Below, piece by piece: positions 14,985-37,532 of a stretch of 43,187 bases of DNA. Origin of the DNA: Candidatus Staskawiczbacteria bacterium (GTDB lineage Bacteria; Patescibacteriota; Minisyncoccia; Minisyncoccales; Staskawiczbacteraceae). Both the position numbers and the translations under genes were made by a program. The number at the start of each line of letters is the position of its first letter. Positions within the stretch are counted from its first letter, which is position 1. Under the pieces are notes generated by a model that saw nothing but the letters and a program-made list of their open reading frames with translations, was not told where the DNA came from and did no database searches. Location: the NCBI GenBank assembly GCA_903831095.1, contig CAIKWD010000026.1:93290-136476 (forward strand). The letters run 5' to 3'.

Positions 14985-16151
14985 TTATGGTTTTATGGGG
15001 ATAATAACTACATAGTTAGGAATTTGGCCGGTATAATAACTGTTTACGTTTTCCCATTTTGTTTGTTGAGGCCCGCTTTTATTTGTATCTTCTGAAGTTG
15101 GGAATTCTTGGCAAAAGGTCCAAGGACCGGTTGGTACATCTCCGGGCCCGGCGTAGACAAACAATACAACATAATCTCCATTTATTTTTACTGAGGCAAT
15201 ATTTTTTCCTCCAAGAGACGGCATTTCTCTTGCTGTACATTCTCCTTCTTTGTCATACTTTGTACAGTTTTGTTCTGGTTCTGGCACATTTGTAAATTTA
15301 AGATCATTAAGATTTCTTACATATAGGCTTGTGCTTCCAATATTTCTTATTGTTTCGTCGGACACGCAAAAATATCCGCCTTGTGGGTTAAAATATGATT
15401 TGCGATAAAAACATACCTCTTTGCCTGGGTTGCTGACTGTAGAGTTGTCAAACCTGTAAACCGAGGCTGAAGAAGCAAATGGAGGGTTTACTGTTTGGCA
15501 AGGAGTGTTTCCATTAATATACATGCATTTTCCTGAAAATCCCGGGTTTTTGTACAAAATTGTAAAGTAAGCTATTTGAGCAGCAGAATCTTGGGTAATG
15601 TCTACTTTTGTTATTTTATTGTTTAGCTTTTCGCCAAAATCTGCGATGCTTGATCTGGTATTTGTCCATCCATCTGGTTCTGGACAAGTGTTAGTGGCAG
15701 TATAAAAATAAACAGCAGGAGTTGAGTTAACAACTGGTGGAGGCGGTATTGGTGGAAGTTCAGTTAATTTAAAAATACTTAAATCTGGATTTATAGTAGT
15801 TATAATTAAATAGGTTAAAATCAAAAGCAAAAGGCCATATACAGCCCCCCTAAATCTTTCTTTAGATGAAGCTAATAAATCTGGCTTTGCTGGAGATAAT
15901 AAGCGCATTGCGCCTGCCCAAACCATGGAAATAGCAACTGAGGAAAAACCGAAAGCCATTCCAAAAGCAAAAATATATTTTGCAAAATCTGGGAATTTAA
16001 CATCTGTAATTGGTAAAGCTTGGCCCATTACAGTTGGGTATGTAAGCTCTACACCCATGGCATTTACCTTACTTATAAAAAGGCAAAAAAATCCTGCGGC
16101 CAGAAAGTGGAAAAAAAATATTCCAATAAAAATTTTATATTTTTTTGTCAT
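14985..16151 (-). CDS. exported protein with pilin-like membrane module (paralogue 1)
   Basis: The 388-aa protein is the most divergent member of a four-gene tandem family. A signal peptide (about 1-31) precedes a conserved module of two further membrane helices: DFAKYIFAFGM...MVWAGAMRLLS, a basic loop SSKERFRGAVYGL, then LLLILTYLIITTINPDLS. The loop-plus-helix pattern matches VirB2/TrbC pilins such as the one at 37170. The exported domain (about 140-388) has two weakly repeated beta-rich segments, including AYFTILYKNPGFSGKCMYI and DYVVLFVYAG, which recall beta/gamma-crystallin Greek-key motifs (inference). It is last in the operon, 15 bp after paralogue 2. Role unknown; a surface structure or adhesin is plausible. 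Confidence 0.8.
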   Translation of the reverse strand: MTKKYKIFIGIFFFHFLAAGFFCLFISKVNAMGVELTYPTVMGQALPITDVKFPDFAKYIFAFGMAFGFSSVAISMVWAGAMRLLSPAKPDLLASSKERFRGAVYGLLLLILTYLIITTINPDLSIFKLTELPPIPPPPVVNSTPAVYFYTATNTCPEPDGWTNTRSSIADFGEKLNNKITKVDITQDSAAQIAYFTILYKNPGFSGKCMYINGNTPCQTVNPPFASSASVYRFDNSTVSNPGKEVCFYRKSYFNPQGGYFCVSDETIRNIGSTSLYVRNLNDLKFTNVPEPEQNCTKYDKEGECTAREMPSLGGKNIASVKINGDYVVLFVYAGPGDVPTGPWTFCQEFPTSEDTNKSGPQQTKWENVNSYYTGQIPNYVVIIPIKP

Positions 16152-16166
16152 TTTATTTTACAAATA

Positions 16167-17339
16167 TTACTCGTTTTTTAATGGCACAATCCAAATATCT
16201 TTATTCAAGCCATTTGCAGAAATTTCGCCTGGTGAATTTTTATAACTGCCAGTTGCGGCTATTGGTTCTTTTTCCAGAACGGGGACATTACTAGTAAATG
16301 TCTGGCAATAAGGCAATACTGATGTTCCAAATACCGATGTAGAGGCAGTAGAATATAGAGCTACTAAATATTTATCAGAAAAAATTATTGAACCAGGGCT
16401 GTCTTTAAAAGTTTTAAAGCGGTTTCTATATGCTGGGTTTCTTTTTGTGGCGATTGGCCAGCTAAAATTCATATTGCTTGGAGTTAACGTTAAATAATGC
16501 TTTCCGCTTCCAACAGGGAAATTTGTTGGTAAAACCTCATAATAACCAGCGTCAGATCCTGGTGTTCCATAAGGCTCACTGTAAAAAGTAAGTTTGTCCC
16601 TGGATTTTACAGGATCCATAGTTATTTTAAAAATATCAGCAGAAACCGCATTTAATGAATCTGCATTTTGTATTGGTATACACATGTTCCCAGCTCTGTT
16701 AAACATGGGAAGAGAACAAAGCCCTCCCCCGCTTTGAGAACCAAGTTTTGATTGGTGTAGTACAGTTCCAAAATAAAGGTCATTTGCAGGATCATTGATA
16801 ATTTTTATGCCTTTTATAATTTTTGTGCTTAATATTGTAGAGCCAGACGCAGGCTTAGAAAATGTACTTGATATATCTGCAATTGAGATTGCTTGTGCTC
16901 CAGAATTATCACCACTGCAATCTGCTTTGTCGTAGAAGTAAACCCCCGGGGCTGTACCCTGTGGCCAGTCTGCCAATTTAGTTGGTTCTGGAAAATTAAA
17001 AGAAGTTAGCTGAGGGTTTATTGTGTTGGCAATTGCGTAAGCGGAAATTGTTAATACTAGTCCTATAACAGCACTTTTCATTCTGCTTTTTCCACTAGTA
17101 GCCATTTCTGAGCTGTCTCCAGAAATTATTAAAAATACAGCACCAACTGCAAAAGATATAACAGATACTACTCCAGCAATGGAAATTCCCCAGGAAAAAA
17201 GAAATGCAGCATATTGTGGAAAACTTGGGTTAGCACCCAACTTCAAGTCTACTTCTAAAGCTCTACAAAAATCTGCGTTTAAAAAAGTAAAAGCAGTTAA
17301 ATATAATGCAAATAAAAAATATTTATATTTTTTTGGCAT
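16167..17339 (-). CDS. exported protein with pilin-like membrane module (paralogue 2)
   Basis: A 390-aa protein closely similar to the neighbour upstream (17339-18460). Order: signal peptide ending around CRALEV; the shared LGANPSFPQYAAFLFSWGIS helix; the loop SGDSSEMATSGKSRMKSAVIGL; the helix ending TINPQLTSFNFPEPTKLADWPQ; and then the exported domain beginning GVYFYDKADCSGDNSGAQ. Within it, IKIINDPANDLYFGTVLH and FSDKYLVALYS suggest a duplicated crystallin-like beta fold. Its start overlaps the previous stop (TAATG), so translation is coupled. Duplication is recent enough that many segments align directly. Confidence 0.82.
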   Translation of the reverse strand: MPKKYKYFLFALYLTAFTFLNADFCRALEVDLKLGANPSFPQYAAFLFSWGISIAGVVSVISFAVGAVFLIISGDSSEMATSGKSRMKSAVIGLVLTISAYAIANTINPQLTSFNFPEPTKLADWPQGTAPGVYFYDKADCSGDNSGAQAISIADISSTFSKPASGSTILSTKIIKGIKIINDPANDLYFGTVLHQSKLGSQSGGGLCSLPMFNRAGNMCIPIQNADSLNAVSADIFKITMDPVKSRDKLTFYSEPYGTPGSDAGYYEVLPTNFPVGSGKHYLTLTPSNMNFSWPIATKRNPAYRNRFKTFKDSPGSIIFSDKYLVALYSTASTSVFGTSVLPYCQTFTSNVPVLEKEPIAATGSYKNSPGEISANGLNKDIWIVPLKNE

Positions 17340-18460
17340 TAATATGTAGGTATTATATAAAGGCTTCTATTTAATGTGGCGCTAATACTTGTGTTTAAAA
17401 AGGTGGTTGTTTTTAAAGTTGGAACAGTTTCAGTGAATGTTTGGCAATATAACAAAGTTGAAGATGAAAGGTCTGCAGATGAGTATAAAGCTACTATGTA
17501 AGATCCACCAAATTTTATAGCTTCTGGCCTATCTTGGAAGCTTTTATATTTACTTTGCCATGCAGGGTCATATGGGGTGTTCTTCCATTCAAATTTCATT
17601 ACAGCAGGATTTTTTATCATGTAAAATCCAGAAGAAAACTCTTCTGGTTTGATTTCATAATAACCACCTCGCGGGCCGCCGTCTTCACCATATCCCTCGC
17701 TGTAAAATTTTAATCCACTTCCAGATGTTTCAGGCATCATATTTATATTAAAAATATCAGCTGAGGCTACGTTCAATCTATCTGCGTTGACAATAGGTTG
17801 GCATTCTCCTCCAGTTGCGCTTGTTGCTTTCATTGGCAAAGAACAAAATCCACCTTGGTCATAACCTGTTTTTGATTTGTGCAAAATAGTGCCGTAATAA
17901 AGATGGTTTGCTGGGTCATTAATAATTTTTATTGCTTGTATTGTACCTACGTCGTTTATATTTTTTATAGCCTTTTTAAAACTTCTTGCTACGCCATCTG
18001 TTGAGATTTTTTGGGCTCCAGAGTTGTCGCCACTGCAGTCTGGCGTGTCATAAAAGTAGACACCAGCACCAGTTGGTTGTGGCCAGTCTGCCAATTTGGT
18101 TGGGTCTGGGAAATTAAAACTTGTAAGTTGAGGGTTAATTGTACTGATAATTGTGTAAGAGGCAAGAGTTAATACCAAACCCAAAACAGCACCTTTCATG
18201 CGGTCTTTTCCACTGGAAGCCATTTCAGCATTGTCAGCAGATATCATTAATGATATAGCTCCTAAAGCAAAAGATATAACAGAAACTAGTCCCGCAAGTG
18301 AGATGCCCCATGAAAATAAAAATTTAACATATTCAGGAAAACTTGGGTTGGCTCCAAGGCCTAGGTCTATTTCCAAAGCATTGGCATAATTTGTTTTTAA
18401 AAAAGCAAATATAAGTAAAAATGCAAAGAAGAATAAATAATTGTATTTTTTGTTTTTCAT
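17339..18460 (-). CDS. exported protein with pilin-like membrane module (paralogue 3)
   Basis: A 373-aa sister of the gene at 16167-17339, with the same layout: signal peptide, LGANPSFPEYVKFLFSWGIS helix, ADNAEMASSGKDRMKGAVLGL loop, TINPQLTSFNFPDPTKLADWPQ, then a domain starting GVYFYDTPDCSGDNSGAQ. Shared segments include IKIINDPANHLYYGTILHKSK and the final YCQTFTETVPTL. The two-helix module with a Ser-Gly-Lys basic loop parallels VirB2/TrbC pilins. The exported part has few cysteines, unlike the upstream 1112-aa relative. It is 12 bp after that gene and overlaps the next start. Confidence 0.82.
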   Translation of the reverse strand: MKNKKYNYLFFFAFLLIFAFLKTNYANALEIDLGLGANPSFPEYVKFLFSWGISLAGLVSVISFALGAISLMISADNAEMASSGKDRMKGAVLGLVLTLASYTIISTINPQLTSFNFPDPTKLADWPQPTGAGVYFYDTPDCSGDNSGAQKISTDGVARSFKKAIKNINDVGTIQAIKIINDPANHLYYGTILHKSKTGYDQGGFCSLPMKATSATGGECQPIVNADRLNVASADIFNINMMPETSGSGLKFYSEGYGEDGGPRGGYYEIKPEEFSSGFYMIKNPAVMKFEWKNTPYDPAWQSKYKSFQDRPEAIKFGGSYIVALYSSADLSSSTLLYCQTFTETVPTLKTTTFLNTSISATLNRSLYIIPTY

Positions 18461-18472
18461 TTTTTTATTCTA

Positions 18473-21400
18473 TTAATATCTATTTGGGTCATATAATGGG
18501 TTGTTATTTGTGGTTGGATTTTTGCTGTATTCTTCACAACAGAACCAGTTGTCAGTTAAGGTAGTTTCTGGAGTTAAAATTTTCCCCAATTCTTTTCCAT
18601 AACAATATGCAGGAACTGTTTCATTATTAAATGTTGTTGAAAGCGATTTGATTGGATCAGTCACTTCTTTTTCAGCTCTTGTACAGCTTAACACTCTAAC
18701 CTTGGCTCCATAAGCATTGTTTGTTAAACTGCATTTGCCTATTGCTTGCCTGGAGTAATCAAGCTCTTTCATAATATCGCTTCTTGGTTCTACAAGCATT
18801 TTTGTATAAAAATCTGTAAATTCAGTTTTTAAGCCTTTGTAATAATTCCAAACTGCCATTAGGTAGAAAGCAACTTGGTCACATGGACTTCCTTTACATG
18901 CCGTGAATGTGCATGAACAAGCTGTATATCCTGGAGAATAAACTCCGCCTATTGTTGTGGCTGGCCAATGTTTTTGTTTAAATATACAATCAGTTGTGCA
19001 GATTGGTTTGCTATTATCAAACTTGGCCGTGCACATGCAGTATTTTTCAACCCCATTTGATTGGTTTATTGCTTGGCCGGCTTTTTTCATTTGAGTTATC
19101 ATGCCAGTTATAAAACCATTCATTTTATTGGCGGAAGCTATTAAGTCGTCAGCCCATTTTATGGCGTCGTCAACAGTTTGGCCAACTGGCACTTCTCCTT
19201 CCTTATTGCATTTTTTTTCAGCTCCAATTGGGATATCTCCTGTTCCTTCTTTGCTTTTGTCTGTAGCCCAGCCCGATCTGCAATAAAAAGTCAAAGGGTC
19301 GTCGTTGTAAGAATAATTGTTGCACTGAGGTCCAACTATTTGGTGTCCAGAAACCTCTTTTGTAGTGGAAACATATTTGGAAATTCCTGATTTAGTAATT
19401 GAATCTGGCAAGGAAAAATCAATTGATAAAGGTTTTGTTGGGTCATTTGGATCGCTTAATTGGTCACATGGACAAAATGGGCAGTCAGAGGAAGTTGGAC
19501 ATTTAGTAGTTTCGGGGCACAATTCTTGGCAAGAAGTTCCTGTCTTAACAGTACTACTGTAGCAAGCGCTTCCTGGGCTTGGTGAAACATAAGGGTTTGG
19601 ACATTTTTGGCATTTTTTGTTGTCTGCTTCGTAAAAATATGAAGAAGAAAATTTATCTGCCGAGCATCCGCTAACTGTGGTGTCTATGCATTCTTGGTAA
19701 CCAGCATATTCGCTAGATCCATTTTTACATTTATAGGCATTATTAATACAATTATTTGTATTTCCTTGGTCAGTAGGCTGGTTTGTACATTCTATTAAAT
19801 TTGAAGCTCCAAACAAACAGCTCCCAGCGTTGTCTGTTAAAACGCATTTTGAATTGTTGTTGCATTGGCTGTTGCAGAAAATATATTCGTCAGAACAATT
19901 AAGATATTTTTTAGCACAAGTGTCCGAACAACTGTTTTGACATGAGCTTATGCATTCACTAAATATTTTAGGGCCATCTGAAGGGGCATTTTTGCACGGC
20001 CTTTTGTTATATGCGTCTTCTATACATTGTTCCTGTTTGTCTGCATTGATACATTTTTTAGAAGCGTCGTCGCATATGTCCCCTATTGGGCAGTCGTCGT
20101 AATCACAAGTAAGTCCACTTCCCGTGGCAGCAGCTATGCCAGAACATTTAGCATAAAGGGTTAATGCTTCTTGGCTATTGTCTGGACACATGTCATTACA
20201 CTTTTTCAAGCAACTGGAATTTTTATAATTAAAACCTTGGCAGTATTTTGCCACGCTTATTGGAGTATTGGTTTTTGGATCTGAAAAAAGTTTGTTGGTT
20301 GAAATTTCAAGGACTTTATTGCTGGTTATTTTTTCAGTTTTTAGAAGATCAATATATGGTATTGCTAAGTAACATTCACCTAGAGTTGTTGTTGCTGTTT
20401 TTAAAACATCTTCATCAGCTTTTATTTCACTCTTTAGCTCACCTATTTTTCCATTAATATATGTAAGCTGGTCAATTAATTTTAAATTATACCAAGGCGA
20501 GCCTTTTTGACATTTATTTTTATTGTCTTGGCATGCAGTAAAGGCATCTTCACATTTTTTCTTATCTGTAAGGCACTTGGCGTAAATTGGCGGGGTCATT
20601 GTATCTTCATCGCAATCTTGGCAATTATTTATGCATATTCCACAGTTTCCCGTTTTAATAATTGTTACGGTTCTGCCATTTATATCTCTAGTAGTTTCAA
20701 CATCATGCTTTATTTCAGAATAAGTTTTAGTAGACCTAAATTCATCTAACCCGGCAAAAATTCTTGTTTCCGTTTTACAACTTTTGCTGCCTGTACCTGC
20801 ATTGGTTTCTACGTTGACATTTATTGGGCCATGTTCAATTTGCTCTTTTACAGTTAAATCTTTGCCAGTCAATGGATTTGTAATGTTTTTACCGGTTTTT
20901 GGATCTATTAATGGTGTTTGAGTTGTTGGTAAAGTATTTGGGTCTAAAGCTTGTGCAGGACAGCAATCTGGAGGTGTTGGCAAAGGATCTGGCATTTTGC
21001 ATGGAGCTTTGACACAGGGTTGAGTACATCCGCCAGAACACTCATCTTTACCGCCATCTATTGTTACACCAGTTATCTGTTTGTTTGTTAAAACTAAAGT
21101 GCAGTCACTTTGTCCCCCGCAAGTTGGTGGGCATTTGCCAAGACAAGAGCAAGTGTCCATTAATTTCATTATGTCTTCAGATAAAGTGGAAATTAAGTGT
21201 CCTTTTTTTTGGGCTCCGTCCAGCAACTGTAAAAGGCAGTCGGCGCGGTCGTTGTTCAAATATGTTGGCCTGGCTAAAGTAGAGTCAATGGAAATGCCGT
21301 CAACTGGGTTTCCTTCTTGGTCAAACCCATAGCAGTCCATTGTCCGTGTTAAAAGAGTTTCAGTTAAAGTTCCAATTGGAATTTCATTATAAGTAGCTTT

Positions 21401-21811
21401 GGGGACAGTTGAAACTTTAGGAGAGCTTGTAGGTAGTAGAAAAGTAAGTGGAGTTAAAACTCCCATTTTACAAGAGGTTAATTCTGGGTTTATTGTGTAG
21501 GCAATAGAGTATGAACTTATAGTAATTAAAAACCCTAAAATTCCAGCTTTAACCCAATTTTTGCCTTCGTCTTTAAATCTGCCCCTGCTGTAATCAATTA
21601 AATAATATATTCCTCCAATAGCTATGGCAAGCATTCCAATTATAGCAGCCAGGTTGATTCCATATCCAAAAAAGTAACAGACATATTCTGGAAAAGAAGG
21701 AGTATTCCCCAACCCAGGTAGTGGGACTTCTAAGGCAAAAGTAAAACTGGCTCTTAAAAAAAAGACAAGAGCTGTTGTGAAGAAAATTATTTTTTTATTT
21801 ACTTTATACAT
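18473..21811 (-). CDS. giant cysteine-rich surface protein with pilin-like membrane module (paralogue 4)
   Basis: A 1112-aa protein. The first 115 residues repeat the family layout: signal peptide ending TFALEV, the segment NTPSFPEYVCYFFGYGIN, a second helix, the basic loop RGRFKDEGKNWVKAGILGF and a helix ending TINPELTSCK. The remaining ~1000 residues carry most of about 75 cysteines, often as CxxC or CxxxC in repeated small modules (for example CSCLGKCPPTCGG, CISSCQNSCSDTCAKKYLNC, CPTSSDCPFCPCD). A heptad-like segment without Cys lies near residues 450-520. The exported part must be disulphide-rich, or possibly metal-binding. It is probably the major extracellular component of the system. 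No catalytic motif is recognised. Confidence 0.82.
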   Translation of the reverse strand: MYKVNKKIIFFTTALVFFLRASFTFALEVPLPGLGNTPSFPEYVCYFFGYGINLAAIIGMLAIAIGGIYYLIDYSRGRFKDEGKNWVKAGILGFLITISSYSIAYTINPELTSCKMGVLTPLTFLLPTSSPKVSTVPKATYNEIPIGTLTETLLTRTMDCYGFDQEGNPVDGISIDSTLARPTYLNNDRADCLLQLLDGAQKKGHLISTLSEDIMKLMDTCSCLGKCPPTCGGQSDCTLVLTNKQITGVTIDGGKDECSGGCTQPCVKAPCKMPDPLPTPPDCCPAQALDPNTLPTTQTPLIDPKTGKNITNPLTGKDLTVKEQIEHGPINVNVETNAGTGSKSCKTETRIFAGLDEFRSTKTYSEIKHDVETTRDINGRTVTIIKTGNCGICINNCQDCDEDTMTPPIYAKCLTDKKKCEDAFTACQDNKNKCQKGSPWYNLKLIDQLTYINGKIGELKSEIKADEDVLKTATTTLGECYLAIPYIDLLKTEKITSNKVLEISTNKLFSDPKTNTPISVAKYCQGFNYKNSSCLKKCNDMCPDNSQEALTLYAKCSGIAAATGSGLTCDYDDCPIGDICDDASKKCINADKQEQCIEDAYNKRPCKNAPSDGPKIFSECISSCQNSCSDTCAKKYLNCSDEYIFCNSQCNNNSKCVLTDNAGSCLFGASNLIECTNQPTDQGNTNNCINNAYKCKNGSSEYAGYQECIDTTVSGCSADKFSSSYFYEADNKKCQKCPNPYVSPSPGSACYSSTVKTGTSCQELCPETTKCPTSSDCPFCPCDQLSDPNDPTKPLSIDFSLPDSITKSGISKYVSTTKEVSGHQIVGPQCNNYSYNDDPLTFYCRSGWATDKSKEGTGDIPIGAEKKCNKEGEVPVGQTVDDAIKWADDLIASANKMNGFITGMITQMKKAGQAINQSNGVEKYCMCTAKFDNSKPICTTDCIFKQKHWPATTIGGVYSPGYTACSCTFTACKGSPCDQVAFYLMAVWNYYKGLKTEFTDFYTKMLVEPRSDIMKELDYSRQAIGKCSLTNNAYGAKVRVLSCTRAEKEVTDPIKSLSTTFNNETVPAYCYGKELGKILTPETTLTDNWFCCEEYSKNPTTNNNPLYDPNRY

Positions 21812-21814
21812 TAT

Positions 21815-22219
21815 TTAATCACTACTTAACACTAAATAAACAAATCCAATCCACGAGGCAGGTATTTTTATACTAAAAAGCATACCAATCGCGCTTATAA
21901 AAGGAGTTATGTCGCTTACAATAGGAATAGCCTCTAAAACAAGGGCTATGATAAATTTAAATGCTAATTTATTTTTCTTTTTAAATACAAATGCCCACAT
22001 TCCAAAAAAAATAACACCAATTGCGTCAGAAATCCAGCCAACACCTGGAAATAATCCAACACCGTCGAATATGACCGCCAAGGAAATCATTAAAACTCCC
22101 TCTGGGGTAGTTAAATTACCCATCCCACTTTTTGCTCCCCCTTTGGCATCATTTTTTGGTTTTTCTTCGCTGCCACTTGTTGGTTTAGCAGGTGGTTTGG
22201 AAGGTGTTTTTACCGCCAT
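21815..22219 (-). CDS. small multi-pass membrane protein in T4SS-like operon
   Basis: A 134-aa protein: a Lys/Pro/Ser-rich cytoplasmic N-terminus (about 1-35) followed by three to four hydrophobic helices (LMISLAVIFDGVGLFPGVGWI, AIGVIFFGMWAFVF, FIIALVLEAIPIV, and a final helix ending YLVLSSD). No known domain is recognised. It sits between virB4 (14 bp) and the giant Cys-rich protein gene (3 bp), so it is cotranscribed and probably a membrane subunit or chaperone of the apparatus. Confidence 0.78.
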   Translation of the reverse strand: MAVKTPSKPPAKPTSGSEEKPKNDAKGGAKSGMGNLTTPEGVLMISLAVIFDGVGLFPGVGWISDAIGVIFFGMWAFVFKKKNKLAFKFIIALVLEAIPIVSDITPFISAIGMLFSIKIPASWIGFVYLVLSSD

Positions 22220-22233
22220 TTTATAAATTTAAA

Positions 22234-24045
22234 TTATAAGTTTTCCGAAAGTTCCAAATCTTTTTTATCTTGCCTGTTTCTTAAAACTTCTTGTGGGTTA
22301 GTTGTGACAATTCTATTTTCTGTGGCACTGGCAACAACAGATAAGTATACGTGTTTTCTACCGGCAAAGAATAAGCCCTCCCCCACTGAAGCTTCCAGTA
22401 AAAGATATTTTTCCTGTTCGGTTAAATTGAAAACTTTTTGCAAAGAATCAATGTCTGCTGTAGATTGTTTCATTAACAATTGTAAAGAAGAGTTGGTAAT
22501 AATTGCCTTGCCGTAGTCTGTGCTCATAAAGTCTGCCACGTTCTGAGTAATAGTGGTAACCCCCAGCCAATATTTTCTGCCTCTTTTTGCCATGCCAAAC
22601 AAGAATGATGCTCCGTCTTGAGACTGCATAAGCGACCAAGCTTCATCAATAACTAAAATTCTCTTTTTTAACTTTGACCTGACAATGTTCCAAATGTATC
22701 TCATTACAATATACAAGGCAATTGGTTTTAAAGAATCTTCCATGTCCCTTATTCCAAAAACTACAAAACTCTTGTCCACGGAAATATTTGACTGCTGGTT
22801 GAAAAAGTCAGCAAAAGTGCCTTTTGTATATTTACCAATTCTTTTTACCAGTGATTCTGTTCCAGACATGCTTTCCAAAACTTCCTGGAAGTCAGACATT
22901 AAAGGAACATTGTTTACCCAGGTTTTTGGATCTGACTCAGGAGTAATATCTCTTACAGCATAAGTTTCTGTTAAAGCTTCATCTAAAATACTGTCTTCTT
23001 CGGGGGTCAATCCGCCCAGCATAATTCTTAAAAGCCCAACCAAGTTTATAACGTTTGACCTTAATACATCTTCGGGGTTGTCATCTGGTCCTGGAACTGG
23101 CAAGTCAAAAGGGTTTAGGTGGTTGGCAGAAGTTAGAGAAATTTTTAAGAATGATCCTCCTACTGCGTCAGCTAAAAATTCATATTCGTTTTCTGGGTCT
23201 AAAATTATGCAGTCTACTCCTTGCATTAAATACCTTAAAATTTCCAGTTTTATTGCAAAAGATTTACCAGAACCAGATTTAGCAAAAACCACCATGTTGG
23301 CGTTTTCTAAGCTAAATCTGTCAAACAAAACCAAGGAGTTGTTGTGTCTGTTTAACCCGTACAAAATTCCTTCGTTTGAACTTAAGTCAAAAGAAATAAA
23401 TGGAAAACAAGTAGACAAAGGAGCCGTATCCATTGGAGTGTGCACTTCAATTAAGTCCATTCCATATGGGTTGCAGGAAATAAATCCCTCTTTCTGCTTA
23501 AACAAGGCAGGCTTTATATAAATTAATCTTGATTCAAAAATTGACCTTAAAGTAAGCTCGGTATCTTTCAAAGCTTTTTCCGAAGTTTCATAAATGGTTA
23601 TGTAAACTCCAAAGCGAAACATTTTTTCCTGAGCGGTCATTAAGTTGTCTCTTAAGGTTTCAATGTCGCGGTATGCAGTTTCCAAAGCTGGGTCTCTTAT
23701 TAGGCCTTTCTCTTCCCTCTCTAAAATTTCAGAGGAAACTTCTGTAATTTTTTTTCTGAGTTTTTTTAAAATTAACTCACTGCTAACAGGATGTATGAAA
23801 AATGAAATGTCCATTGGTGTACTCAAATCTATAACTGGAGAAAACCAACCAGTATTTAAATATCTTGGATAAGAAAAAACAAAGAATGATTTGGCAAACC
23901 TTTCTCCAAGTTTTATGTGGTCTTGCATAACCCCTATATATGGAGGAGCAATAATATCCCTTACATCAAAAGCTTCTTCTTGGAATATTTTGTCAGTTAA
24001 ATTGTCTTGTTTCTTCCCTATTAAATTGTCTAAAAACGATGCCAT
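22234..24045 (-). CDS. virB4: VirB4/TraC-family type IV secretion ATPase
   Basis: The 603-aa cytoplasmic ATPase energises type IV secretion or conjugation pili. The middle region (about 30-240) matches the CagE/TrbE/VirB4 N-domain pattern; Walker A AKSGSGKS is at 255-262, a DPENEYEF motif at 283-290, Walker B RILVIDEAWSLM at 463-473 and the RKYWLGVTTITQ motif at 490-501. The frame is open further upstream to 24219, but that stretch overlaps the preceding gene and has no VirB4 similarity; ATG at 24045 (MASFLDNLIGKK) gives an 11-bp gap and is preferred. Part of the usual N-terminal region appears to be encoded by the separate gene just upstream. Confidence 0.93.
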   Translation of the reverse strand: MASFLDNLIGKKQDNLTDKIFQEEAFDVRDIIAPPYIGVMQDHIKLGERFAKSFFVFSYPRYLNTGWFSPVIDLSTPMDISFFIHPVSSELILKKLRKKITEVSSEILEREEKGLIRDPALETAYRDIETLRDNLMTAQEKMFRFGVYITIYETSEKALKDTELTLRSIFESRLIYIKPALFKQKEGFISCNPYGMDLIEVHTPMDTAPLSTCFPFISFDLSSNEGILYGLNRHNNSLVLFDRFSLENANMVVFAKSGSGKSFAIKLEILRYLMQGVDCIILDPENEYEFLADAVGGSFLKISLTSANHLNPFDLPVPGPDDNPEDVLRSNVINLVGLLRIMLGGLTPEEDSILDEALTETYAVRDITPESDPKTWVNNVPLMSDFQEVLESMSGTESLVKRIGKYTKGTFADFFNQQSNISVDKSFVVFGIRDMEDSLKPIALYIVMRYIWNIVRSKLKKRILVIDEAWSLMQSQDGASFLFGMAKRGRKYWLGVTTITQNVADFMSTDYGKAIITNSSLQLLMKQSTADIDSLQKVFNLTEQEKYLLLEASVGEGLFFAGRKHVYLSVVASATENRIVTTNPQEVLRNRQDKKDLELSENL

Positions 24046-24056
24046 ATGTGTTGAAG

Positions 24057-24716
24057 TTATTTTAATAACTCTGGTAAAATTTCCGGGTAGTACCCAATTT
24101 CTGCCTGATCTGGGTGGTGTATAGACCAAAAAAGTTCTATGAGTTCTGGAGTTGTTAGTGGTACTGCCTCCAAACCACACCTTCGCAAGCCCATGGACAA
24201 ATATTCCATTCTTTGCCAAAGCTGTGCTTTACATCTTTGGAATTCGTCATCTTTCATAGGCGCGCCTTGCGATCCTGATCCTGACCCAAAAAGGTTAAAA
24301 CTCTTAGCCGCCCCTTTTACGCCAAGTATTTCCATAAGGTTGTATGGAATTACAACATAAAAGTTTTTTGTCATGACGCTGTCGCCCACAACCATTCCTT
24401 GTATAAATTCTCGGTATGAGGCAGTTTGTTCACGCAACAAAGAATTGGTTTGTTTGTCTTCTAAATCTTTAAGGCTGTCCAAATACGGAGTAATGTTTAT
24501 ATTTCTTGACTGAATAACAATTTGGCAGAAAAAATCTAAAGAGTTTAAGAAATTCTGAAAAGCATAAATTATAGCGGTTTGTTCTTCTTCGGATTTCAAG
24601 GCAAAGTTGATGGAAGAAACCATTAAAATTCCCCTTATGGAATTGTTTTTCAAAATTACAACTCCCTCTCTTATGTCTTGTACCTCTAAAAATGCTTGTG
24701 TTGCTGATTCTGCCAT
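24057..24716 (-). CDS. TraC-like N-terminal-domain protein (split VirB4 partner)
   Basis: A 219-aa soluble protein between the PrgI-like gene and virB4. It begins with a VQDIREGVVILKNNSIRGIL segment, a beta-strand pattern seen at the N-terminus of TraC/VirB4 ATPases, continues with QTAIIYAFQNFLNSLDFFCQIVIQSRNINI (typical of the same region), and ends with helices containing ELIELFWSIHHPDQA. No P-loop is present. It looks like the ATPase's substrate- or membrane-interacting domain encoded as its own protein, a layout I recall from Gram-positive and CPR type IV systems. Gaps are 12 bp to the PrgI gene and 11 bp to virB4. Confidence 0.8.
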   Translation of the reverse strand: MAESATQAFLEVQDIREGVVILKNNSIRGILMVSSINFALKSEEEQTAIIYAFQNFLNSLDFFCQIVIQSRNINITPYLDSLKDLEDKQTNSLLREQTASYREFIQGMVVGDSVMTKNFYVVIPYNLMEILGVKGAAKSFNLFGSGSGSQGAPMKDDEFQRCKAQLWQRMEYLSMGLRRCGLEAVPLTTPELIELFWSIHHPDQAEIGYYPEILPELLK

Positions 24717-24728
24717 ATTATTTAAAAA

Positions 24729-25136
24729 TTATTTTGTACGCATTTCTATTTGCGTTCTTGTTCTTTTTAATTGGCTTGTTTGAGCTTGCAAAACTGGACC
24801 TTGGTCAATTTTTCTAATTTGAGTTCTGGTTATTGGCTTAAATGGATATGGAGATTCCTTTTTTTTCCAGGTGTAATCCTTCCCTCCTATTGAAAACCCA
24901 ATTGACCCTAAAATAAAATTCAACAATGGAGTGCCGTTAACCTTTCCAAAAGCAAGAGCAATCATTACGCTAAAAATTAATATGGCAAACAAATAAAACA
25001 ATGGTGTTGGAAGCACAAAGTAGAGGAAAAAGCAGGCTATGCCAGCTCCCACTAAATAGAAAAACTGCCTGAATGAGATAAAGAAGGCAATTTTGCTTTC
25101 TGACTCAATAAACTGCGGTATTGGATATTGTTCCAT
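24729..25136 (-). CDS. PrgI-family (VirB3-like) inner-membrane protein
   Basis: A 135-aa protein with the PrgI signature: N-terminal YPIPQFIESESKIAFFISFRQFFYL, two adjacent membrane helices (about 25-43 and 47-66), then FGKVNGTPLLNFILGSIGFSIGGKDYTWKK and a basic tail. PrgI/VirB3 proteins sit with VirB4 at the inner membrane in type IV secretion systems. It is the first gene of the minus-strand operon and has a good promoter directly upstream. Confidence 0.88.
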   Translation of the reverse strand: MEQYPIPQFIESESKIAFFISFRQFFYLVGAGIACFFLYFVLPTPLFYLFAILIFSVMIALAFGKVNGTPLLNFILGSIGFSIGGKDYTWKKKESPYPFKPITRTQIRKIDQGPVLQAQTSQLKRTRTQIEMRTK

Positions 25137-25158
25137 ATGTTTGTGGTTAAATTACTCT

Positions 25159-25188
25159 ATTATATCACGTATAAAAAAGTACAGGCAA
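25159..25188 (-). promoter_or_regulatory. promoter of the T4SS-like operon
   Basis: On the minus strand TTGCCT (25183-25188), an 18-bp spacer and TATAAT (25159-25164) preceded by TGA (extended -10). The expected start is about 15 bp before the prgI-like ATG at 25136. It diverges from the SPFH promoter less than 50 bp away. Confidence 0.65.
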
Positions 25189-25205
25189 TACGAGTTGTAA
25201 ACATA

Positions 25206-25234
25206 TTGACAAGATGTTTGTATTGTGATATAAT
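25206..25234 (+). promoter_or_regulatory. perfect consensus sigma70 promoter of the SPFH gene
   Basis: TTGACA (25206-25211), exactly 17 bp, then TATAAT (25229-25234) with an upstream TGA. Both hexamers match the bacterial consensus fully. The 5' leader would be about 105 nt. Confidence 0.85.
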
Positions 25235-25346
25235 AAATCTAGGAAAGTTCATTGAGAAAGCACGGTTTTTAGATATAGGTGTACCCTATTTCGCCGTTAA
25301 TATTTGTAGTGAATTTAAAAACAAACAAAGAAAAGGAGAGTGTCGA

Positions 25347-26468
25347 ATGAAAACGCTAATTGATTTGTTGATTGCGATGATGATTGTGTTGGGACTCTTG
25401 GTTTTAACTTTAACTGTTGGAAAATGGGTAGCCTTAGTAGGGTTGCTCTTGTCCATCGTTTGGTTCATAAAATCTTTAAAGGTTATTGGACCGGATGAGG
25501 TAGCACTCATGGTTGTCTTCGGAAAAATTATAAGAAAGATTTTCCGAAGTGGGTTGATGTTTCTGCCTTATTTTCCTGGGGTCAGGTTGATAAGGATAAC
25601 GACTAAGCAACTTCCCTTAAGGTATGAAGGGAAGCTTGAGCACCGGGTCTGGTCAGGAGACAGGCAGGGACTCTTGGTAGACGTTACAGGGGCAGTGAGA
25701 TTCCCCTTTAATGAACTAGACTCACTTATTTTGATGGTTCAATCAGGGGTGCCTTTAGACCAAGCTGGCCTGCAAGAGTGGGCAGAAGATGAGACGATTT
25801 CTGGTCTAAAAGATATCGCCGCTGGATTCACCTTGGAGGAATCTTTGTCGAAATCTAACATCACAGCAATAAATGCGGCTGCGATGGCTTTTTTCTTAAG
25901 GCCAGACGGTCTCTTCGCCAAGTCTGGAATTTGCGGGAATAATCCTACGAATTTTGAGCCGGGAACAGGTGAAGTCATCCTAAGGATTGAGCAAATCAAT
26001 CCTACGGAAAAAATCCAAAAAGCAATGGAGTTGACCGTATCGGCTAAATATGAAGCCAATGCCGCGCGGGAAACTGCCAGAATGAATGCCGAAGAAGTCG
26101 GCACTCAGATTATTACAACAGTGGCCCTGTTATCTGGGGTTGATATTGACGATCCTGCAAAGCTTAAAGCTTTCAAGGAAAAAATCAATACTGACCCAAC
26201 TCTCAGAAGCAAACCAGCTTCAGATGGTGGATACAAGGAAGTGTTTGATGCGGCAATAGACCAACTCAAGAGAGACAGGTCTGGTGCTCAAGACATACGC
26301 GTTGGCAATGCTGACGGTACCGCCATGAATGGTGAACTTCCAGCTTTTGCTGCAGCCGCACTTTTGCTTAATAGAGGAGGTGGCCGCGGTGGAGACGGAA
26401 GAAAAAACAAAGAAAAACTGTCGCCACTTGAGTGGCATGAGAAATGGAAAAAAGATAAGGGATTTTAG
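25347..26468 (+). CDS. SPFH/band 7 (stomatin-prohibitin-like) membrane protein
   Basis: A 373-aa protein. Two N-terminal hydrophobic stretches (about 5-45) are followed by the band 7 entry KVIGPDEVALMVVFGKIIRKIFRSGLMFLPYF, a beta-rich domain, and a helical region with AKYEANAARETARMNAEE typical of SPFH coiled coils. Gly-rich and Lys-rich sequences end the protein. SPFH proteins form membrane rings or microdomains. The frame is open 73 codons upstream, but ATG at 25347 has AAGGAGAG 7 bp before it and starts the hydrophobic segment. Base composition is GC-richer and the ribosome site stronger than in the surrounding genes, suggesting transfer. It is antisense to and inside the T4SS-like locus. 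Confidence 0.85.
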   Translation: MKTLIDLLIAMMIVLGLLVLTLTVGKWVALVGLLLSIVWFIKSLKVIGPDEVALMVVFGKIIRKIFRSGLMFLPYFPGVRLIRITTKQLPLRYEGKLEHRVWSGDRQGLLVDVTGAVRFPFNELDSLILMVQSGVPLDQAGLQEWAEDETISGLKDIAAGFTLEESLSKSNITAINAAAMAFFLRPDGLFAKSGICGNNPTNFEPGTGEVILRIEQINPTEKIQKAMELTVSAKYEANAARETARMNAEEVGTQIITTVALLSGVDIDDPAKLKAFKEKINTDPTLRSKPASDGGYKEVFDAAIDQLKRDRSGAQDIRVGNADGTAMNGELPAFAAAALLLNRGGGRGGDGRKNKEKLSPLEWHEKWKKDKGF

Positions 26469-27006: not shown

Positions 27007-29160
27007 TTATGCAACTCCACCACCTTTATCATGCTGGTCTTCATTGGCAAATTCATCTTCAAATTCTGCATCTGGATCTAACCTTCTTGTAGCTTTTTGG
27101 TGTATTTTTGCACGTTTTACAGCTTCTGCTTTTTGTTCATCATTTCCAATTTTTAAATTGTCTACGTTCTCTTTATGAGCTTTGTCAAAGGCGTCAATTT
27201 TTGCTTCGCTACCATTTCTAAGTAAATTGGTAATCTGAGCCTCTCCAGCATATTTTGCAAATGCTCCCATAGCTTCTGTAGGTAATTCTGAAACTTTGTG
27301 AGCAGGATATTTTTGTACTGCTTTCTGAATTCTTTTTTCGCTCAATGTAGTTTTTGTATTTGCTATTGATTGGTCAGAAGGTTTGAATTTTGCCATCTCC
27401 GAAGCAATAGCTTTTTCAGACAATCCTGCATCAACATGTTTTTTTCTTTCATCATTAGCAAGTTCGTTGTAAGCATCTTTATCAGTTAATGGAGCAAGGC
27501 CAAGAGCATTTTCTGTAGTTTTCTGTTTTTTGATTTCCTGTCGAGCTTTATTCAACGCGCTATCAAGAGCAGGACCTTTTGTTGGCATAGCTCCCTTAGC
27601 CATTTTTTGAGCTTCTTTCATAGTGCTTGCTTTACTGTCTTTCAAATATCCAGCAGCCAACTGATTTTGCATGTGGGCTGCAGCTTCTTTGTCTGTGGCA
27701 ACTGTTCCAAGTTGGGCATCAGCTTTGGTAAATGCTTCTTTAGAAGCTCCCATGCTTTGAGCGTAAGCTGCAATTCCAGGAAGTTTTGTAGCATTAACTT
27801 CTCCAAGCGCACCTCTTTTAGCCAATATTTGGGCAGCAGCTGCTTTGTCCAATGCTTGATTATGAGTAATTGGCCTTTGTTCGGCAATTTGAGCAAGCTT
27901 CTTGTTGTCTTTAATATTTTCCAATCTCTTGGTTGGCTCTGCTAGTCTGCTTGCCTGGTTGTCAGCAGTAGTTCCTTTTGGAACCAAGTTCAACTTTTCT
28001 CCCATGGCTGTTGCCTTGTCTTTCATGGCGTTTCCAACTTTGGCAACTGATGAAGGTACTGCTCCAGCACCCATTTTCCCCATACCCATTGCGGTTTTCT
28101 TGCCCATAGACATAAGGGCACTTGCTCCCATTGGAGCTATTTGTAAAGAAGCTAAAAATCCAACAATTAAAAACAATGCTGGTAGCATTAAACTCAAACC
28201 ACTTGTGAAGGTTTGTAAAGCACTTGCATCTACTAATTGGTCGCCTATTAGACCAGCCGGGCCTGCTGGAACTCCTGGTATAGTTCCTGTTCCAGAAGGT
28301 CCTATTTTTTGCATCATTGACGCGCCTATGTAATAAAAAAGTCCGGCTGGAATTCCTATAATGCACCACTGGAAAAAGTTTTTCCACCACATTTGCCAAA
28401 TGCTTTTTGTAAATGGAAAAACATAACACACAAAAGCCAAAGGAGCCATTATAACCAACATCCATAAAGCTATAATTCTGCCTATTAGCAAAAATATGTA
28501 TATTATATATATGAAAGATGCAGTAATATTAAAAAATATCAGTGAAAATATTGTAGGTACAAATGCCATCCAATTATCTCCCAAATGCTCTTTTACTGTT
28601 TCAAAACTGGCAGTAACTTGGGTAGCATAAAAAGCTCCGCTTCCAACATTTCCGAAAAAAAACTTCATTAAGATATTTGTGCCGTCAATAAATACTCCGC
28701 ATATTATGGAAGAAAAGTTTACCAAGAGAGCAACTATTATAAGTGGGGCTAAAAGTTTTTTTGCCTCATATTCTCTGAACCTTAAAGAAGTTGCTACTCC
28801 TATGATAATAAATCCTAAAACAATAAGCATGTTTGCCAATTCTCTAACAATTGGCAAACCAATTATAACAGCTCCACTGTTAGTATAGCTTGTTCCTCCA
28901 CCTATAGCTGCATTTATCGCCCAGGTCAATAATATTCCTACGAGGTCGCAAATTACTGCTGATGCAAGTAATGGCAAAGTCATAAAAATCATTATCATCG
29001 AATTGAAATAGGCTGTTATCGCTCCATCCCAAAGAAATGCGCTATACCAGTGTTCTCCTGCAAAAGAAACGCAAGGAATGGAAACAATAACAACTGCAAA
29101 TAACAAAATTAAAAATAATGTTTTTTTATTTTTTAAAATACGAGAGAGAAATTTTGGCAT
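27007..29160 (-). CDS. VirB6/TrbL-like polytopic membrane protein with long soluble tail
   Basis: A 717-aa protein. A signal or first TM (about 13-33) is followed by six or more helices up to residue 340. The last helices contain the IGRIIALWMLVIMAPLAFV and IWQMWWKNFFQW segments characteristic of VirB6/TrbL channel proteins. Residues 350-717 form an Ala/Lys/Met-rich helical tail with no membrane segment, unusual in length for the family. VirB6 forms the inner-membrane translocation channel in type IV systems. It lies 8 bp after rsmA on the minus strand and is separated from the prgI-virB4 operon by the opposite-strand SPFH gene. Confidence 0.88.
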   Translation of the reverse strand: MPKFLSRILKNKKTLFLILLFAVVIVSIPCVSFAGEHWYSAFLWDGAITAYFNSMIMIFMTLPLLASAVICDLVGILLTWAINAAIGGGTSYTNSGAVIIGLPIVRELANMLIVLGFIIIGVATSLRFREYEAKKLLAPLIIVALLVNFSSIICGVFIDGTNILMKFFFGNVGSGAFYATQVTASFETVKEHLGDNWMAFVPTIFSLIFFNITASFIYIIYIFLLIGRIIALWMLVIMAPLAFVCYVFPFTKSIWQMWWKNFFQWCIIGIPAGLFYYIGASMMQKIGPSGTGTIPGVPAGPAGLIGDQLVDASALQTFTSGLSLMLPALFLIVGFLASLQIAPMGASALMSMGKKTAMGMGKMGAGAVPSSVAKVGNAMKDKATAMGEKLNLVPKGTTADNQASRLAEPTKRLENIKDNKKLAQIAEQRPITHNQALDKAAAAQILAKRGALGEVNATKLPGIAAYAQSMGASKEAFTKADAQLGTVATDKEAAAHMQNQLAAGYLKDSKASTMKEAQKMAKGAMPTKGPALDSALNKARQEIKKQKTTENALGLAPLTDKDAYNELANDERKKHVDAGLSEKAIASEMAKFKPSDQSIANTKTTLSEKRIQKAVQKYPAHKVSELPTEAMGAFAKYAGEAQITNLLRNGSEAKIDAFDKAHKENVDNLKIGNDEQKAEAVKRAKIHQKATRRLDPDAEFEDEFANEDQHDKGGGVA

Positions 29161-30088: not shown

Positions 30089-31240
30089 TTGTTAAAGATT
30101 ATTAACACAATATTAATAAGGATAAAAGGTGTTTGGCTCACTTTGACAGAGACTAAGAAAGGGGCTAATTCAAAGGGATTATTGAAAAATCCTTCGTTTT
30201 ATTTTGGGCTTACTTGCCTGCTTCTTTTTGTATCTATATATGCTTCATGCGACAGTTCAGCTAATATGGGAAACTTTAGCACTAGCAGTGGGATATTTCT
30301 AAAATCAGCTTTCGATAGAAATACCAAGATAAGTGGAGATAATTTGTTTTCAAGCAAGGCAAATGCAATTGCACTGGAAACTCCAGATTTGAAAATAATG
30401 CAGGACAACACGCTTTGCGGAGTTTCTACCCCTTGTGTTGTTTCTGGCAAGGTTTTGGGAGATGTTTTTGGAGGCAACAGCCAAAACCAAAAAGAAGTTA
30501 TAGATTATACAGTACAGCCCGGAGACACTGTAAAATCAATTGCCGACTCTTATAAAATTTCTACCAACACCATATTTTGGGCCAACAATATGACCAGCTC
30601 TTCGGCAATCAAAGTTGGCCAGGATCTTGCAATTTTGCCAGTTGATGGAGTTTTGCACGTTGTAAAATCTGGAGACACTATTTTTGGAATTGCCCAAACT
30701 TATAAGTCGCAAACTGAAGATATAATTTTTTACAACGACTTGGCAAACCAGGACGACATATATATAGGAGATATTTTAATTGTTCCTGGAGGAGTTATGC
30801 CAAAGAAAGCTGGGCCAATTATAAACAACCAGATTCCTTTAGCTAATAATTATTTTATTTTCCCAGCTCAAGGTTATATAACCCAAGGGCTTCATTATTA
30901 TAATGGCGTTGACCTAGCTAATAAATGTGGAACTCCAATTTATGCAGCTGCAGCTGGAGTTGTGCAAAGGGCATACAATGATGGTGGATGGCACCAAGGC
31001 GGAGGAAATTATATAATAATTTTACACCCTAATGGATTAACTACTTATTACGGGCACGTTATGACTTCATTGGTAAAGATAGGAGACACAGTTTACACCG
31101 GCCAAAATATTGCTTTGATGGGGGGAAAACCGGGCATGGCTGGAGCAGGCCACTCAACTGGTTGTCACGTACATTTTGAAGTTAGAGGAGCTGTAAATCC
31201 TTTATCGAAGTTTCCAGTTGGCTCATATATTAAATATTAA
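30089..31240 (+). CDS. LysM-M23 peptidoglycan endopeptidase, membrane-anchored
   Basis: The 383-aa cell-wall hydrolase has an N-terminal cytoplasmic stretch and one TM (about 37-52), two LysM peptidoglycan-binding repeats (about 138-184 and 189-233) and a C-terminal M23/LytM domain. That domain has GVDLANKCGTPIYAA (D275), YYGH and GCHVHFE (H360, H362). The first zinc ligand is probably H269, six residues before D275, which is further than in canonical HxxxD. The start is uncertain: TTG at 30089 gives the protein described; the next in-frame ATG (residue 60) would remove the TM. M23 enzymes cleave peptide cross-links and could open the wall for the T4SS-like machine encoded just upstream. Confidence 0.9.
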   Translation: MLKIINTILIRIKGVWLTLTETKKGANSKGLLKNPSFYFGLTCLLLFVSIYASCDSSANMGNFSTSSGIFLKSAFDRNTKISGDNLFSSKANAIALETPDLKIMQDNTLCGVSTPCVVSGKVLGDVFGGNSQNQKEVIDYTVQPGDTVKSIADSYKISTNTIFWANNMTSSSAIKVGQDLAILPVDGVLHVVKSGDTIFGIAQTYKSQTEDIIFYNDLANQDDIYIGDILIVPGGVMPKKAGPIINNQIPLANNYFIFPAQGYITQGLHYYNGVDLANKCGTPIYAAAAGVVQRAYNDGGWHQGGGNYIIILHPNGLTTYYGHVMTSLVKIGDTVYTGQNIALMGGKPGMAGAGHSTGCHVHFEVRGAVNPLSKFPVGSYIKY

Positions 31241-37169: not shown

Positions 37170-37532
37170 TTATATACTATATCCTACAGCTTTTGCAACA
37201 AAGCTGATTATTGCATATGAACAAAAAGCCAAAGCCAGCCCTATTATAGCTGAATAAACTGTTTTCTTGCCAATACTCATTAAGTTTGCGTTGCCAGCTG
37301 AAACCATCATCATTATTCCCCCTACCGTTAAAGCTACAATTGCCAATGGGCCAGCAATGTCTATTACTATAAATTTATAAATTTTATTTAGCATTGTGAA
37401 AAAATCTCCTATAGTACATGGAGTAGTTTGCCCACATGGCACTAACCCGCTTTGGGCAGAAACAACTGACGGTAAAATTAAAACAATTGCTGTAAAAAAT
37501 AGTGAATTTACAGCTAAAAGTATTTTTTTCAT
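37170..37532 (-). CDS. VirB2/TrbC-like pilin
   Basis: A 120-aa small membrane protein: signal peptide (about 1-26, cleavage near VSAQS), a short Cys-containing segment (LVPCGQTTPCTIGD), then two hydrophobic helices (IDIAGPLAIVALTVGGIMMMVSA and SAIIGLALAFCSYAIISFVA) joined by a basic loop GNANLMSIGKKTV. This is the VirB2/TrbC pilin layout, processed to a two-helix subunit in type IV systems. The same helix-loop-helix module heads the four large exported proteins at 14985-21811. It is isolated between tRNA-Lys and tRNA-Arg genes. Confidence 0.85.
   Translation of the reverse strand: MKKILLAVNSLFFTAIVLILPSVVSAQSGLVPCGQTTPCTIGDFFTMLNKIYKFIVIDIAGPLAIVALTVGGIMMMVSAGNANLMSIGKKTVYSAIIGLALAFCSYAIISFVAKAVGYSI

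Follow-up and report, generated by a model that had tools for sequence, protein, structure and literature searches.

Four consecutive genes (A1-A4) on the minus strand of a Candidatus Staskawiczbacteria contig encode exported proteins in which a signal peptide and a hairpin of the T4SS pilin family precede large exported domains. From computational evidence and with moderate confidence, I interpret A1-A4 as modular VirB2-like pilins that are docked on the T4SS encoded beside them and show their cargo outside the cell. The window, by which I mean the whole analysed stretch of 43,187 nucleotides, belongs to a genome of 806 kb in 31 contigs (97% complete), and the array occupies positions 14985-21811, its ORFs either separated by 12-15 nt or sharing a single base. 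The minus-strand cluster is ordered VirB6-like, PrgI/VirB3, TrsD-like, VirB4, small membrane protein, A4-A3-A2-A1, and the features of the window referred to below are these:

14985..16151, minus strand: A1, 388 aa; signal peptide, T4SS-pilin-like hairpin (module at residues about 12-132) and predicted beta/gamma-crystallin-type ectodomain
16167..17339, minus strand: A2, 390 aa; architecture as A1; PF18895 match of 29.6 bits, above the 26.6 cut-off
17339..18460, minus strand: A3, 373 aa; architecture as A1; ectodomain at 133-373 predicted to be beta/gamma-crystallin-like
18473..21811, minus strand: A4, 1112 aa; signal peptide, hairpin (module at residues 7-117) and Cys-rich ectodomain
21815..22219, minus strand: hydrophobic protein of 134 aa, encoded between virB4 and A4; matches no family
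22234..24219, minus strand: VirB4 ATPase of the CD1110 type; NF045971 360 bits, cut-off 325
24057..24716, minus strand: TrsD-like protein, a remote VirB4 N-terminal homologue (3.6e-7, under the TrsD cut-off)
24729..25136, minus strand: PrgI/VirB3-like protein; PF12666 34.4 bits, cut-off 27
27007..29160, minus strand: VirB6-like polytopic membrane protein, named from its position and a weak TrbL match of one homologue (E 0.005)
30089..31240, plus strand: LysM and M23 peptidoglycan peptidase
37170..37532, minus strand: short T4SS pilin without cargo; PF18895 28.1 bits, TrbC/VirB2 27.1 bits

The preliminary description had drawn attention to four consecutive genes with a common signal peptide and hairpin and had likened their helix-loop-helix to the simple pilin at 37170-37532, and both observations were confirmed: pairwise alignments of the A1-A4 N-terminal modules reached z = 13-70 against shuffles, and alignments of the short pilin with the same modules z = 8-16. 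With blastp, the short pilin matched A3 (4.8e-10), A2 (1e-7) and A4 (8e-6), and its match to A1 was weak (0.05, A1 as query). Signal peptides were assigned by eye from the sequence; hydropathy, sequence and structural models all describe the modules as a signal peptide followed by two hydrophobic helices and a basic turn. A2 and A3 are full-length paralogues (54% identity) and the match between A1 and A3 spans 322 aa (9e-20). Judged from these alignments, the ectodomain is homologous in A1, A2 and A3 and belongs to a separate family only in A4, so that the earlier wording of "unrelated or diverged" exported parts has to be divided accordingly.

The curated PF18895 cut-off was passed by A2 and the short pilin, A3 fell under it with 20.6 bits, and A1 and A4, which had no direct Pfam T4SS_pilin match, were placed by alignment and iterated profile through their homology to A2 and A3. 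Across the phylum, the T4SS_pilin profile matched 51/56 sampled modules at E <= 0.01; at E <= 1 it matched 29/37 A1-A3-type and 14/18 A4-type proteins, and 43/45 cargo-bearing proteins from other orders had a match. TrbC/VirB2 (PF04956) matched just 7/56 modules at E <= 0.01, too few for it to serve as the sole family, an assignment which was rejected; in the window, its cut-off of 27.9 bits was missed by the short pilin, and the array proteins had no match. The expectation of a VirB2/TrbC match was thus borne out for the T4SS pilin profile but hardly for TrbC/VirB2 itself, and since the PF04956 cut-off was not reached, A1-A4 are called VirB2-like here and not TrbC/VirB2 members by Pfam. A profile of the module retrieved 90/1786 real ORFs and 0/1786 locally shuffled ORFs at E < 1e-3, the motif AK..I..A..GL......TINP.L is kept, and a PDB search with the module profile retrieved no solved VirB2 pilus. 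Conjugative VirB2/TrbC pilins likewise have a signal peptide, two hydrophobic helices and a short basic turn; the classical ones are short with nothing past the hairpin, whereas A1-A4 carry cargo. End-to-end cyclisation, as in some of these pilins (PMC11722321), would be precluded by fused cargo.

The AlphaFold model of A3 (pLDDT 83.8) comprises a signal helix (residues 5-21), two long helices forming the hairpin (41-73 and 78-108) and then a beta-rich ectodomain. Foldseek against the PDB returned beta/gamma-crystallin chains as its top four matches (probability 0.98-0.99), with a TM of up to 0.66 over the crystallin and a modest E-value of 0.03, and the fifth match was the cell-adhesion protein DdCAD-1. 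A sequence profile of the A1-A3 type found 3hzb (E 0.0026), annotated in the PDB as a carbohydrate-binding protein; Pfam Crystall matched 5/37 A1-A3-type members (best 3.7e-4), and within the window Crystall_3 was matched by A1 only (E 0.15). Fold search, PDB profile and Pfam, each modest alone, agree and modestly favour a beta/gamma-crystallin-type ectodomain in A1-A3, with a predicted fold like that of 3hzb, hahellin and DdCAD-1 but very low identity to beta/gamma-crystallins. The calcium motif of beta/gamma-crystallins, N/D-N/D-x-x-S/T-S, is not universal in the fold; none was present in the window proteins, and a calcium-motif idea was rejected because 7 occurrences against 2.9 expected, with a shuffle maximum of 8, are not an enrichment. 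Given the predicted fold, an adhesin role of A1-A3 is plausible, and the carbohydrate-binding annotation of 3hzb together with the adhesion role of DdCAD-1 makes attachment a fair guess, no more. A4 contains 75 Cys and long helical segments (model pLDDT 71; helices at 2-20, 40-75 and 82-107), and its fold search gave no meaningful match to known folds.

A monoderm (CD1110-like) VirB4 with TrsD and PrgI neighbours, the combination that marks a patescibacterial T4SS, is present in the cluster. The VirB4 ORF is listed from a TTG, and its homologues begin at about residue 57-60 (near 24,040). The product of 27007-29160 may be VirB6-like, mainly from its position, and the LysM and M23 peptidase at 30089-31240 is a possible wall opener for the T4SS. 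The virB6-like gene and prgI are separated by an ORF on the other strand, at 25128-26468 (plus; 446 aa from a TTG). The window also encodes dnaA, dnaN, rnpA and yidC, assigned by reading translations, the first three of which neighbour the T4SS locus. No match to PF02534, the VirD4 coupling protein family, was found anywhere in the genome. Ten module-bearing genes were found genome-wide at E < 1e-7 (E-values calculated per genome): A1-A4, the short pilin of the window and five short pilins elsewhere, so that all four fused genes of this genome sit within the virB4 array and none elsewhere. The five other pilins (101-118 aa) stand in tandem on contig 31 (G000; L181:978-2910, minus strand), a different contig from the virB4 cluster, adjoining a gyrA-like gene; they are probably bulk pilins.

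In 58 relatives, a match to A3 was found in 56 and VirB4 in 57, and at least 54 carry the module within an open frame of >= 200 aa. Such module-bearing proteins were present in 40/41 regions, namely the window and 40 fetched regions that form a biased sample, being chosen mostly for holding a match. Most of these proteins fall into two cargo families, to which single-linkage clustering assigned 48 (A1-A3 type) and 25 (A4 type) members; named relatives recovered with A4 were mostly Candidatus Staskawiczbacteria (Parcubacteria). The order VirB6-PrgI-TrsD-VirB4-A4-A3/A2-A1 recurs across genus and family, and in 16/16 clusters checked in the family A4 comes directly after virB4, in the same orientation (gap -16 to 603 nt). 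Homologues adjoin virB4 or a virB6-like gene in the clusters examined, so that neither of the two refuting outcomes named in the preliminary description was observed; in several genomes a fused gene adjoins the virB6-like gene or sits on another contig than virB4. Within the genus, identity was 89% for VirB4, 75% for PrgI, 51% for the A4 module and 48% for the A4 ectodomain, and this faster divergence of the array proteins is as expected for surface-exposed parts. A plasmid search returned no A3 homologue.

Arrays as such have been published. VirB2-like arrays of 2-11 genes lie near virB4 and dnaA in Patescibacteria (PMC12102498), one is essential in Southlakia, the sole strain tested for T4SS need (PMC10633639), and patescibacterial pilin arrays and T4SSs have been reviewed (PMC12857230). 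The arrays of PMC12102498 and PMC10633639 resemble the present one in Pfam family, tandem arrangement, virB4/trsD/prgI neighbours and origin-proximal position, and there, too, a coupling protein was not found nearby, but in the text their members are treated as pilins, with no mention of fused 250-1000 aa domains or enzyme cargo; the profile search behind the survey in PMC12102498 may have counted some fused proteins as pilins. Nor was fused cargo, or beta/gamma-crystallins on such pilins, found mentioned in the accessible text of the three papers or in further open-access literature. The earlier remark that no described system has this layout therefore fails for the arrays near virB4 and dnaA and stands, as far as those texts extend, for the large fused domains; the T4SS neighbours and origin-proximal site of such arrays are likewise already known.

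The module was present in 189/189 sampled genomes of the class, and in at least 56/177 genomes of other orders it lay in a frame of >= 250 aa, a count in which frames may contain some upstream codons. In a set of 80 virB4 loci picked regardless of pilins, at roughly one per family, a module protein of >= 200 aa within ~10 kb of virB4 was found in 6/10 loci from other orders of the class and in 12/70 from other classes, two of which look like double pilins; the profile used was trained first on the window's order and may miss divergent modules. Cargo was surveyed with Pfam in this 80-locus sample and in 45 proteins of other orders chosen non-randomly for long frames. Sister lineages carry subtilase (4.4e-55), Amidase_2 (2.1e-15), SLT (1.6e-13), CarboxypepD_reg (3.6e-14), M23 (1.1e-10), NlpC/P60 (9e-8), bacterial Ig-like (3.5e-6) and dockerin (3.9e-6) domains. 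One protein of 1221 aa (L246:656-4321) joins the pilin module to a complete subtilase domain, and the protein that follows it again has a pilin module, at its C-terminus. A cargo group of ten proteins (L087, L214, L218, L222, L224, L231, L238, L242, L249 and L251), poorly covered by Pfam, was detected by its alignment profile and not by single-sequence Pfam; its members conserve an H-x(6)-D pair and have a further histidine close to the C-terminal end. In the PDB, that profile matched Sonic hedgehog (3.6e-6) and gave a weak match to an L-alanyl-D-glutamate peptidase (0.077), which points to the LAS (Sonic hedgehog/M15) metallopeptidase fold; the ten are putative wall peptidases. Two A4 homologues (L042:5445-9089 and L053:7376-11101) contain an M23 segment covering profile positions 42-88 of 96 only, in which, by eye, the first half seems placed after the second as in a circular permutation; with this half-profile match, an active enzyme is not claimed. 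Two further candidates (L144:17512-18174 and L148:1665-2381) were dropped as cargo proteins, since they look like two pilin hairpins per chain. Fusion to a pilin module, as put forward in the preliminary description, therefore recurs, but "pilin-adhesin fusion" is too narrow a term, because wall hydrolases and proteases are frequent among the cargo of other orders. Tentatively, the VirB2-type hairpin may be a general mounting module in Patescibacteria that sets adhesins, peptidoglycan hydrolases or proteases on an extended T4SS pilus or pseudopilus, with which the host cell wall would be gripped and breached.

Mechanistically, the signal peptide of A1-A4 would be removed, leaving a two-helix membrane hairpin whose ends would both lie outside and whose basic turn would lie inside. 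Hairpins that are C-terminal with cargo ahead of them, as in L118, L143 and L157, are consistent with both ends facing outward, and in the H-pilus structure the loop joining the two helices carries positive charge and points into the lumen (PMC11722321). The VirB3(PrgI)-VirB4-VirB6-like platform of the same cluster would recruit the fused hairpin like ordinary pilins, by analogy with VirB2, which is proposed to assemble on VirB6, levered by VirB4 (PMC9259494). The fused proteins would then join the T4SS as minor subunits at the tip, the base or in a pseudopilus, with the genome's six short pilins as bulk subunits of any pilus they may form, although packing a cargo of ~1000 residues and 75 Cys into a filament may be hard. 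The beta/gamma-crystallin domains of A1-A3 and the Cys-rich domain of A4 would lie outside and bind or engage the envelope of the neighbouring host cell, so as to hold or open its wall. In sister orders, wall-active cargo on the same module would take VirB1's job.

The fused proteins could instead be channel or wall-penetration parts like VirB1, VirB5 or VirB8, without an extended pilus, an alternative that I consider rather unlikely and that overlaps the modular-pilin explanation, since the latter allows a pseudopilus or base. The Amidase_2, NlpC/P60, M23 and SLT cargo of sister lineages and the LAS/hedgehog-type fold speak for it, as does the absence of VirB1 from most genomes of the phylum that have VirB2-like pilins (PMC12102498); against it, no hydrolase was recognised in the window's own cargo, and the six short pilins of the genome, five of them in tandem, suggest a filament or pseudopilus. 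It is unlikely that the hairpin is a mere two-pass anchor, pilin-derived and no longer assembled, that holds surface adhesins or envelope proteins placed at an origin-proximal locus by chance. Helix-loop-helix anchors are readily co-opted, some modular proteins are encoded at a distance from virB4, and the locus neighbours dnaA, dnaN and rnpA, a common T4SS site in Patescibacteria (PMC12102498); but the confinement of the four fused genes to the virB4 array, the linkage across the order and the retention of a specific motif for which a plain anchor should have no use all argue otherwise. That the exported domains are effectors sent through the T4SS with the hairpin as secretion signal, as subtilase cargo and Cys-rich domains in relatives might suggest, is very improbable given that Sec signal peptides place the cargo outside ahead of any T4SS step and that PF02534 was not found in the genome.

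Modular VirB2-like pilins would have their nearest parallel in modular type IV pilins, although the two pilin families are unrelated. In examples such as PilB and PilC of Streptococcus sanguinis (PMC8179133), a small pilin module likewise bears a bulky functional graft, with adhesion or carbohydrate-binding cargo, but the class III leader and single N-terminal helix of type IV pilins were not found in A1-A4, which have a Sec-type signal peptide, a two-helix hairpin and T4SS neighbours. Gram-positive VirB1-type hydrolases and adhesins such as PrgB are likewise T4SS-linked, exported and monoderm, but use other anchors (such as LPxTG for PrgB) in place of a pilin hairpin (reviewed in PMC12857230). 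The fusions bear on how ultra-small epibiotic bacteria cling to their hosts and draw on them: recurrence across the class suggests a role of the pilin part as a socket by which tools are fitted to the secretion machine. If hairpins are indeed sockets for exchangeable cargo, modular pilin design would have arisen independently in two unrelated pilin families, socket-borne cargo may account for the frequent apparent absence of a VirB1-type wall opener, and the cargo of a lineage would reveal the task of its T4SS at the contact site.
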